Source of the DNA: Amycolatopsis sp. DSM 110486
Lineage (GTDB): Bacteria > Actinomycetota > Actinomycetes > Mycobacteriales > Pseudonocardiaceae
Length of the DNA: 64,000 nt
NCBI RefSeq assembly: GCF_019468465.1
Contig: NZ_CP080519.1
Location: 9,975,001 to 10,039,000 of the forward strand
Direction of reading: 5' to 3'
The notes under the pieces were generated by a model, which saw only the letters and a list, made by a program, of their open reading frames with translations, was not told the origin of the DNA and did no database searches. Positions 46,412-57,163 of this stretch are shown here, piece by piece. The number at the start of each line of letters is the position of its first letter. Positions within the stretch are counted from its first letter, which is position 1. The translations under genes and the position numbers were made by a program.

Positions 46412-46838
46412 CGCCGAGCTCCAAGCGGGCGGCCGCAACGTCGCCATGGTCGGCGACGGAGTCAACGCCGCACCCGCCCTCGCCCAAGCCGACGTCGGCA
46501 TCGCGATCGGCGCCGGCACCGACGTCGCAATCGACACCGCCGACGTCGTCCTGATGCGATCCGACCCACTCGCCGTGCGCACCGCCCTGCGCAAGATGCG
46601 CCAGAACCTCGGCTGGGCCATCGGCTACAACACCATCGCCCTCCCCATCGCGGCCGGCGTCTTCGCCCCCGCCGTCGGTCTCGTGCTACGCCCCGAAATC
46701 GCCGCGCCGGCCATGTCCGGCTCCAGTCTCATCGTCGCCGTCAACGCACTCGCGCTGAAAGCCCTACGACTCCCCGCACGATCGCCCACGGAACCCCGGC
46801 CGACCAGCTCGGAGCGGCGCCACAGCGTCACAACATGA
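46412..46838 (+). pseudogene. C-terminal fragment of P1B-type ATPase
   Basis: Reads NVAMVGDGVNAAPALAQADV through GAGTDVAIDTADVVLMRSD to the ATPase C-terminus and stop, matching the end of the intact ATPase at 54021-56420. Everything N-terminal is missing. The conserved Asp of GDGVNDAP is Ala here. A 21-base deletion (the IGRGTLR codons) lies between two CTGCGC direct repeats, so the fragment is under no constraint. Confidence 0.85.
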
Positions 46839-47093
46839 ACCGCGCCAGCGCGAAGAGGACCTTGTGCCCTGCGAGGTGAGACGTTGGCCCATCGCATCCC
46901 GACAACGATCCGCGCACGCTGGAAGTCTCCTGAGAAGAGAGCTGGCGAATGACCACCAACCGAAACGCCAGCGGCAGGCGATCATCGCAGCATTTCCCCA
47001 CCGGTGGGCGCGCTGATGATGGCCCGAGCCATCGAGGACAGGCCCAAAGGTGAGCGACGTTCCCAAACCGAGAAGTGATGGGACAGAACAACG

Positions 47094-47366
47094 ATGTACT
47101 GGGACGGATACGGAATGAGCGGCTGGGGCCTCGCGCTCATGACCATCGGCAACCTGGTGTTGTGGGCGCTGGTGATCGTCGCGATCATCGCCCTGGTCCG
47201 CGTCCTCAGCCGCAGGTCCGGCCCCGGTGACGGTGACGGTGAACGGTCGACCCCGGAACAGGTGCTGGCCGAGCGGTTCGCGCGCGGCGAGATCGACGAG
47301 CAGACCTATCGGCGCGACCTCGAGACGCTGCGTCAGCTCCGCCACTCCACGTCCGGCGGCTCCTGA
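47094..47366 (+). CDS. Small membrane protein with SHOCT motif (copy 1)
   Basis: A 90-residue protein: an aromatic/Gly-rich start (MYWDGYGMSGWG), one TM (LALMTIGNLVLWALVIVAIIALV) and a C-terminal SHOCT helix (VLAERFARGEIDEQTYRRDLETL). Paralogue of 56686-56955 in the second copy of the duplication. Both copies remain open and similar in sequence, suggesting retained function at the membrane near metal/sulfur genes. Confidence 0.8.
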   Translation: MYWDGYGMSGWGLALMTIGNLVLWALVIVAIIALVRVLSRRSGPGDGDGERSTPEQVLAERFARGEIDEQTYRRDLETLRQLRHSTSGGS

Positions 47367-47469
47367 TCTCGTCGGCACCGGCGGCGATTGCGCTGTCCGG
47401 TCGGGCGGGCACCCTGCGCAAGACGCGGCAGAACCTCCGCTGGGCCGTCATCTTTCGACAGTTGACATC

Positions 47470-48264
47470 TCACCCGCCGCGCAGTGCGGCGGGGGTGAAC
47501 ACGGCCGCTGCCACCACTCCGACGGCCACCGCCAGGACCAGGTAGGCAAACATGCGCCGCACCGTTCGTCCCGGAAGCCGGTTGCCGAAGCGCCCGGCTG
47601 CCACGGACGCCAGCAGGGCGACTGTGGCGAACACCGAGGCGACGCGGTAGTCGAGGTCGGGCAGGGTGGTCGCGTGGGCGGCCAGCCCGCTCAGCGAAGT
47701 GAGCACGATGACGACCAGCGAGGTCGCGACGGCCTCCGGCGCGGTGAGCCCCAGCAGCATCGTCAGTGCGGGGATGATGACGAACCCGCCGCCGACTCCG
47801 AACAGGCCGGTGAGCAGCCCGACGACCGCGCCGACGGTCAAAGCCTTGGGCACACAGCTGCGCCAGTTCACCCCGCCGCCACTGGTCCGGCAGGCGCCGT
47901 CCGGCGCCGGGGCTGCGGTGAGCATCCGCACCCCAACCATCGTCATCAGACCAGCGAAGGCGACCAGCAGCCATCGGTCCGGAATCAACTTCCCCAGCGC
48001 CGTGCCGGCGAACGCGCCGGGGACGCTCGCCACGGCGAAGACGAGCGCGACGGGCCAGCGGATCACCTTCGACCGCCAGCGGGACACCAGGCCACCCGCC
48101 GCGGACACGGCCACGACCACCAGCGACGTCGGGATCGCCGAGCTGAGCGGCAACCCGACCCCGTAGACCAAGGCCGGGATCGCCAGGATGGAGCCGCCCG
48201 CGCCGAGCACGCCCAGGGCCGCGCCGACAACCAGGCCGAACACCGCGGTCAGCAGCACCGTCAT
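47470..48264 (-). CDS. TauE/SafE-family sulfite/sulfur exporter (TSUP)
   Basis: A 264-residue permease with two homologous 4-TM halves; each half begins with a GLVVGAALGVLGAGGS or GLLTGLFGVGGGF motif, typical of TauE/SafE (TSUP) carriers. It begins 10 bases after the MBL-rhodanese stop, so the two are one operon under the operator at 49648-49663. In staphylococcal cst loci a TauE protein accompanies CstR, CstA and CstB, so sulfite/thiosulfate movement is the likely role. The 3' end lies in the segmental duplication. Confidence 0.9.
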   Translation of the reverse strand: MTVLLTAVFGLVVGAALGVLGAGGSILAIPALVYGVGLPLSSAIPTSLVVVAVSAAGGLVSRWRSKVIRWPVALVFAVASVPGAFAGTALGKLIPDRWLLVAFAGLMTMVGVRMLTAAPAPDGACRTSGGGVNWRSCVPKALTVGAVVGLLTGLFGVGGGFVIIPALTMLLGLTAPEAVATSLVVIVLTSLSGLAAHATTLPDLDYRVASVFATVALLASVAAGRFGNRLPGRTVRRMFAYLVLAVAVGVVAAAVFTPAALRGG

Positions 48265-56420: not shown

Positions 56421-56685
56421 ACCGCGCCAGCGCGAAGAGGACCTTGTGCCATGAGAGGCGAGACGTTGGCCCATCGCACCCAGATAAGACTCCGCGCACG
56501 CTGGAAGTCTCCTGAGAAGAGGAGCTGGCGGTGAGCACCGACAGGAACGTCCCAAGCCGCCGCGGGCGGCCATCGCGGCGCTTCCTCGCCGGCGGCATCG
56601 TGGGCGAGGTGTCAGCGGCCCGAGCCATAGTGGTCGGGCCCGGGTCTGAACGACGTTCCAGATCGAGAACTGATGGGACTCAACA

Positions 56686-56955
56686 ATGATGTACTGGGGC
56701 AGCTACGGAATGGGCGGCTGGGGCGTCGTGCTCATGGCCGTCGACACCGTGCTGTTCTGGGTGCTGGTGATCGTCGCGGTCGTGGCGCTGGTCCGCGTCC
56801 TCAGCTGCTGGCCCGGCCGCGGAGACCGTGAACGGTCGAACTCGGAACAGCTACTGGCCGAACGGTTTGCTCGCGACGAGATCGACGAGCAGGCCTACCG
56901 GTGTGACCTCGAGACGCTGCGTCAGGTCCGCCACTCCACATCCGGCGGGTCTTGA
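56686..56955 (+). CDS. Small membrane protein with SHOCT motif (copy 2)
   Basis: An 89-residue paralogue of 47094-47366: MMYWGSYGMGGWG, one TM (VVLMAVDTVLFWVLVIVAVVALV) and SHOCT helix LLAERFARDEIDEQAYRCDLETL. Starts at ATG 56686 or the adjacent ATG 56689. It follows the P-type ATPase by 265 bp. Confidence 0.8.
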   Translation: MMYWGSYGMGGWGVVLMAVDTVLFWVLVIVAVVALVRVLSCWPGRGDRERSNSEQLLAERFARDEIDEQAYRCDLETLRQVRHSTSGGS

Positions 56956-57059
56956 TCTCGTCGGCACTCCAGCGAATACCGCAGTCCGGTCGGGCGGACA
57001 CCCTGCGCAAGATGCGGCAGAACGTCCGCTGGGCCATCATTTCTCGAGCGTTGACATCC

Positions 57060-57163
57060 TCACCCGCCGCGCAGTGCGGCGGGCCGAATGCGGCCGCTGC
57101 CACCACTCCGACGCCCCCGGGCCAGGTAGGCAAACGTGCGCCGCACCGTTCGTCCCGGAAGCC
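57060..57163 (-). pseudogene. 3' remnant of TSUP gene
   Basis: Matches the last codons and stop of the TSUP gene at 47470-48264 (TCACCCGCCGCGCAGTGCGGCGGG and RRTVR/CAY-coding segment), with small indels. No upstream TSUP sequence follows; it is the truncated end of the duplication. Confidence 0.75.

Follow-up and report, generated by a model that had tools for sequence, protein, structure and literature searches.

Reciprocally truncated direct repeats around a predicted sulfane-sulfur operon in Amycolatopsis sp. DSM 110486: a probable scar of local duplication and decay

The window, i.e. the whole stretch of DNA analysed here, comprises 64,000 nucleotides of Amycolatopsis sp. DSM 110486, and all coordinates refer to it unless stated otherwise. 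Its part of interest starts with a multicopper oxidase gene (MCO; 44556-46025, - strand) and a SHOCT gene paired with it (SHOCTm; 46022-46261, - strand), both recognised by Pfam search and the latter also by locus comparison. The left copy of a direct repeat follows (46409-47579, + strand). It contains a 3' remnant of a P-type ATPase gene, delimited by alignment (46409-46838, + strand), a gene for a SHOCT-type small membrane protein of 90 amino acids (47094-47366, + strand; PF09851 at 22.6 bits, below the cut-off of 27), a 49-bp ATPase scrap detected by blastn that is one base short and therefore frameshifted (47401-47449, + strand), and the 3' end of a TSUP gene. The latter gene, encoding a TauE/SafE-type sulfite exporter of 264 amino acids (PF01925), is whole at 47470-48264 (- strand). 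On the same strand lie the gene for an MBL-rhodanese fusion (48275-49633), a persulfide-dioxygenase-like protein, and that for a CstR/CsoR-type repressor (51073-51426; PF02583). Between this repressor and the next clear gene, a whole ATPase, is a stretch of 2.5 kb without clear genes, which holds a scrap of an IS256/mutator-type transposase (52473-52769, - strand; PF00872 with E 0.0017, below cut-off, and transposase phrog_17698 with E 2.6e-8).

The whole P-type ATPase (53937-56420, + strand; Pfam search and translation) has 827 amino acids and retains the DKTGT, TGES and GDGVND motifs as well as a CPD motif. Its 3' end opens the right repeat copy (55970-57163, + strand), in which order and orientation are those of the left copy: a SHOCT-type gene of 89 amino acids (56686-56955, + strand), homologous to the left SHOCT and devoid of a Pfam match of its own, the second copy of the 49-bp ATPase scrap (56990-57038, + strand; blastn, 90% identical to 56155-56204), and a 104-bp scrap of the TSUP 3' end, delimited by alignment (57060-57163, - strand). 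The SHOCT reading frames are open in both copies. Beyond are a nitroreductase gene (57358-58377, + strand) and an MFS gene (58564-60288, - strand), named from its sequence.

The left TSUP-MBL-CstR genes look like an operon of the sulfane-sulfur type, a prediction that is based on the joint presence of the PF02583 repressor, of an MBL protein combining PF00753 with PF00581, of the PF01925 exporter and of an operator candidate. This candidate, at 49648-49663 (+ strand) just upstream of the MBL gene, is an exact match to ATACCn6GGTAT, the motif of the Streptomyces coelicolor CsoR protein, ScCsoR (PMC7533328). When up to two mismatches are allowed, 8 sites are found in the window where 4.24 would be expected, and 8 or more occur in 7 of 100 shuffles; since such sites are near shuffle level, weight can be given only to the exact site and to where it lies. 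The first-pass annotation had spoken of an uninterrupted ATPase-SHOCT-TSUP-MBL-rhodanese-CstR set. All these genes and both domains are present, but the MBL and rhodanese domains belong to a single 452-residue protein and the repressor gene lies 1.4 kb beyond it, so that the set is not tightly contiguous. A perfect 24-bp palindrome is found between the MBL and CstR genes (50968-50991). The stretch 51384-51576 beside CstR was first taken for a DUF302 gene; it does not read as an open DUF302 frame and is taken here for a remnant, the DUF302 gene of relatives being located past TSUP. A second sulfur-related pair in the window (37648-39834) consists of an ArsR-type HTH-rhodanese fusion and a protein with two rhodanese stretches.

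The two repeat copies form one continuous same-strand blastn alignment, 84.04% identical over 1209 columns with 140 mismatches and 13 gap openings, and their start-to-start spacing is 9561-9596 bases. The shared order and orientation that had been claimed for 46412-47579 and 55972-57163 is thereby borne out, the alignment being continuous across the ATPase 3' end, the SHOCT gene and the TSUP 3' end; its left ends are at most 3 bases off the claimed positions and its right ends agree exactly. The reciprocal truncation holds as well: the ATPase is 5'-truncated and TSUP whole at the left, while at the right the ATPase is whole and TSUP reduced to its 104-bp scrap. Identity along the repeats is uneven, with 330/359 bases in the ATPase core, 66/68 in the ATPase tail, 92/102 in the block after the ATPase, 104/149 in the noncoding leader, 227/267 in the SHOCT gene, 45/49 in the ATPase scrap and 96/104 in the TSUP 3' end. 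The likeness is far above chance, and the divergence is too great for an assembly doublet. In a search of the strain's own genome (10,984,156 bases, 2 contigs), with 40 of 384 first-look candidates scored, two of the eight matches listed are full-length and the other six are pieces of the ATPase core of 59-117 bp; no third full-length copy is among the matches listed.

Several observations bear on the ancestry of the left (L) and right (R) copies. In the ATPase 3' core they share 322 of 352 bases, and 22 other sequences (from 13 of 20 family loci fetched, 4 of 80 named loci and 5 plasmids) share at most 335/373 with R (89.8%) and 310/352 with L (88.1%). A tree of these 24 rows places L and R as sisters with support of 100/99, the bootstrap being not fully settled, and a 12-row ATPase tree likewise joins them. 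In the TSUP 3' end, L has at most 88/110 bases in common with any of 12 relatives, as compared with the 96/104 that it shares with R, and the corresponding 14-row tree again makes L and R sisters (99/99). Enlarging the ATPase outgroup from 10 to 22 sequences left this relation in place; the columns in which L and R share a base absent from relatives fell from 17 (10 outgroups) to 2 (22 outgroups including plasmids, shorter core). Moreover, in both copies the 49-bp scrap, one base short of the gene, is joined to the TSUP end. Because L and R are sisters in two trees and have this scrap-TSUP junction in common, the ATPase-SHOCT-TSUP junction was most likely formed once, giving the copies a single origin. 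In both copies the scrap, whose source is 56155-56204, is flanked by SHOCT and TSUP; it is older than the duplication proposed below.

Each copy has decayed at a different end. The left ATPase is without its first ~2 kb, has lost the Asp of GDGVND (GDGVNA) and has suffered a 21-bp deletion between two CCCTGCGCA repeats. The right TSUP scrap has gaps of 1 and 5 bases, the frame being shifted between them and restored after. Motif loss and deletion in the one, and the frame shift in the other, are what loss of constraint on redundant copies would leave. When changes in the ATPase core are polarised, 17 fall on L, 7 of them at the first or second codon position, and 8 on R (4 at these positions), with 5 ambiguous; a stricter count with 10 outgroups gives 13, 6 and 13, respectively. 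For TSUP the figures are 2 on L, 4 on R and 2 ambiguous. By these counts (17:8 for the ATPase, 4:2 for TSUP) the asymmetry of decay is modest, and maximum-likelihood branch lengths agree in direction (ATPase, L 0.093 and R 0.020; TSUP, L 0.0045 and R 0.072). Between the copies, dN and dS are 0.044 and 0.17 for the ATPase 3' part, and 0.16 and 0.23 for SHOCT.

The longest identical run is 92 bases (46777-46868, + strand, identical to 56359-56450). It covers the ATPase tail and noncoding DNA and is close to the leader, where identity is 70%. A run of this length was reached in none of 20000 column shuffles over 46412-47579 and in 8 of 20000 within 46412-46939. Later gene conversion is likely to lie behind this candidate tract, constraint being the alternative.

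The direction of copying can be approached from the gene order of relatives. A search of 390 family genomes, own included, had 1 or 2 candidates scored per genome, so that rarer arrangements could escape; in the 10 best relatives among the matches listed, TSUP-MBL is 80-85% identical at the DNA level and the match starts at most 7 bases from the TSUP stop. Of the 36 rows in a table of fetched loci with both TSUP and MBL, 13 repeat a locus as a shorter stretch, which leaves 23 distinct loci. The next gene past TSUP is DUF302 in 15 of the 23 and a rhodanese gene in four; the remaining four have neither within 1.8 kb (one, L173, with only 1.16 kb of sequence). In none is the ATPase or the SHOCT of the repeat next after TSUP. 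SHOCTm-MCO is found past TSUP, on the same strand and within 1.8 kb, at 8/23 loci, a proportion that is no family frequency since several loci had entered the table on account of an MCO match; one further locus (L049) has MCO without SHOCTm. At the eight same-genus loci DUF302 adjoins TSUP and SHOCTm-MCO is never next to it, which leaves other genera and a plasmid as the basis for the collinearity. If the ATPase-SHOCT insert is disregarded, SHOCTm-MCO succeeds TSUP in the window as it does at the 8/23 loci that have it past TSUP. From this left-hand collinearity we conclude that TSUP is native to that side and that the junction there was the source of the TSUP scrap at the right; the TSUP junction thus probably arose at the left and was then copied to the right.

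A search for the ATPase-SHOCT-TSUP order or for an empty site, as suggested at first pass, found neither in the relatives examined. The order is absent from the 20 family ATPase loci fetched and from the 32 screened of 80 named ATPase loci, some of these loci being cut off at contig ends, and among the matches listed from the 390 family genomes (1-2 candidates each) none outside the own genome crosses the ATPase-SHOCT/TSUP junction. The right flank (57164-61200), compared with 80 genus genomes of about 6-11 Mb, own included, yielded no empty site; the matches of its nitroreductase, MFS and IS481-type pieces lie at separate locations in relatives.

The right flank has features of its own. The nitroreductase region (57172-58377) has two relatives in the own genome at 76-77% (contig 1, 10064820-10065982 and 8042075-8043171), and in one genus relative, G140, homology to this region starts 9 bases past the right repeat end. 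For the MFS stretch (58390-60232), identity to one genus relative (G094) is 93%, as against at most 85% for TSUP-MBL among the relatives listed; from this comparison, the MFS stretch is a probable recent import. An IS481-type transposase gene (60492-61136) has near-full-length copies, at 83-91%, in at least 7 genus relatives, with two in G115.

Our preferred reading, to which we assign a probability of roughly 0.7, is that the repeats are the scar of an old local duplication of ATPase-SHOCT-TSUP, each copy having later lost a different gene end. The two trees, the junction scrap and the two full-length copies all point to a decayed segmental duplication of single origin. An ATPase-SHOCT pair would have been inserted, in opposite orientation, just past the TSUP stop of a CstR-MBL-TSUP-...-SHOCTm-MCO operon, at the point occupied in most relatives by a DUF302 or rhodanese gene. 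The ATPase-SHOCT-TSUP 3' end would then have been duplicated ~9.6 kb rightward in the same orientation, either in tandem, with deletions trimming the result afterwards, or as a direct dispersed copy. The redundant ends presumably decayed thereafter, the left ATPase losing its first ~2 kb and its catalytic motif and the right TSUP shrinking to 104 bases, to leave two open SHOCT genes; the 92-bp tract suggests that the copies probably exchanged sequence afterwards. Points against this account are the modest asymmetry of decay, the lack of an empty site in the genus genomes compared, the absence of SHOCTm-MCO beside TSUP at the same-genus loci, and an identity, 84%, that is low for a recent duplication. 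Given that overall figure, and a noncoding leader (70%) more divergent than the ATPase part (92%), the age of the duplication is uncertain.

Of the two origins put forward in the first-pass annotation, duplication agrees better with the findings than Campbell-type integration of a circle. The latter, which we consider unlikely, would have a circle bearing the complete ATPase-SHOCT-TSUP-MBL-CstR set recombine with a 1.2-kb chromosomal remnant. It predicts just the reciprocal truncation observed, ATPases of this type are present on actinobacterial plasmids, with as much as 90.5% identity in the 3' end, and the 92-bp identical tract could serve the crossover. Integration by homology needs no attachment site, target duplication or tRNA. 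No tRNA is found in the window. The outer repeat edges have a single 5-base word in common within 15 bases, a chance-level match that 841 of 5000 random pairs also show, and beyond it no target-site duplication is seen; no 10-base same-strand word common to the flanks was found, one inverted word being present. A GTTGACATCCTC motif before the TSUP stop, which we took to resemble an IS200/IS605 end, was likewise discarded: the genome has its 15-base pattern only once, and in relatives TSUP coding sequence lies beyond it. What stands against integration is that chance would have to re-create the collinearity seen on both sides of the left copy, and that both a pre-existing decayed remnant and a source circle, the latter not seen, are required. 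Among the larger spacer ORFs, to which the tests were confined (Pfam; ten ORFs against PHROGs), no integrase, replication or transfer family is above cut-off, the transposase scrap being the only mobility-related find; ORF 53226-53660 gives a weak match to the Pfam TraI N-terminal subdomain (E 0.059, 13.8 bits against a cut-off of 26.4) that PHROGs do not support. Finally, none of 72,556 plasmid records covers 80% of either query (46000-51500 or 55970-57163).

It is also conceivable, with a small probability, that the right copy was not duplicated in this genome and came instead from a related strain having the same ATPase-SHOCT-TSUP junction. The large divergence between the copies (84%; SHOCT dS 0.23) would suit such an import, and the nearby MFS gene, at 93% to one genus relative while TSUP-MBL and the ATPase reach at most 85% and 83% among the relatives listed, indicates that imports occur in the vicinity. 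However, among the matches listed from the 390 family genomes (1 or 2 candidates scored in each) none outside the own genome crosses the junction, and the branch of the whole ATPase, sister to the decayed left copy, is short (0.020). That the truncated pieces arose independently, from two unrelated ATPase-SHOCT pairs, is hardly credible: an ATPase followed by a same-strand SHOCT like that of the repeat does occur at 2 of the 20 family loci fetched (L163 and L171), yet the scrap and TSUP junction common to both copies speaks strongly against independent origin, as do the sister positions in the ATPase and TSUP trees.

The statement that a crossover between the repeats would release a 9.6-kb circle with the set joined, leaving remnants behind, is correct on paper. 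Judging from the gene order, it would also cut TSUP-MBL-CstR off from SHOCTm-MCO. Under the duplication reading, the structure would be a static scar and any circle an accidental product of homologous recombination that splits the operon. We think it improbable that the repeats still recombine, gene conversion keeping the 92-bp tract identical and rare crossovers reversibly deleting or amplifying the 9.6-kb segment. If true, this would lead to a mixed population in which some cells carry the circle or extra copies of a metal/sulfur stress segment.

The sulfane-sulfur circuit of S. coelicolor (PMC7533328) comprises a CsoR-like repressor, a persulfide dioxygenase, a rhodanese and a TauE-type exporter, gene kinds that are alike here; the present locus also has a CsoR/CstR-type repressor and the exact ATACCn6GGTAT just upstream of the MBL gene. 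Unlike the circuit described there, it has an antisense ATPase-SHOCT insert between TSUP and SHOCTm-MCO and a second ATPase-SHOCT copy 9.6 kb off. The locus is also an instance of a metal-ATPase and SHOCT pair placed antisense within an apparent sulfur-detoxification operon. Among the plasmids seen, gene order is most similar in pPA12743CP of Pseudonocardia autotrophica, in which MCO, SHOCT, rhodanese, TSUP, rhodanese, MBL and metal-sensitive repressor genes follow each other on one strand, in an order like that found here. It differs in having a rhodanese gene in place of the ATPase-SHOCT insert, and its P-type ATPase is ~4.5 kb past the repressor. Segmental duplication with partial deletion of the redundant copies has precedents in bacteria. 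As in these, direct repeats here surround a segment, their truncations are complementary and the redundant ends have decayed. A mobile-looking pattern of reciprocally truncated direct repeats can stem from duplication and decay, and it is the gene order of relatives, more than repeat geometry, that separates duplication from circle integration; compared with such segmental duplications, the locus demands no new mechanism.
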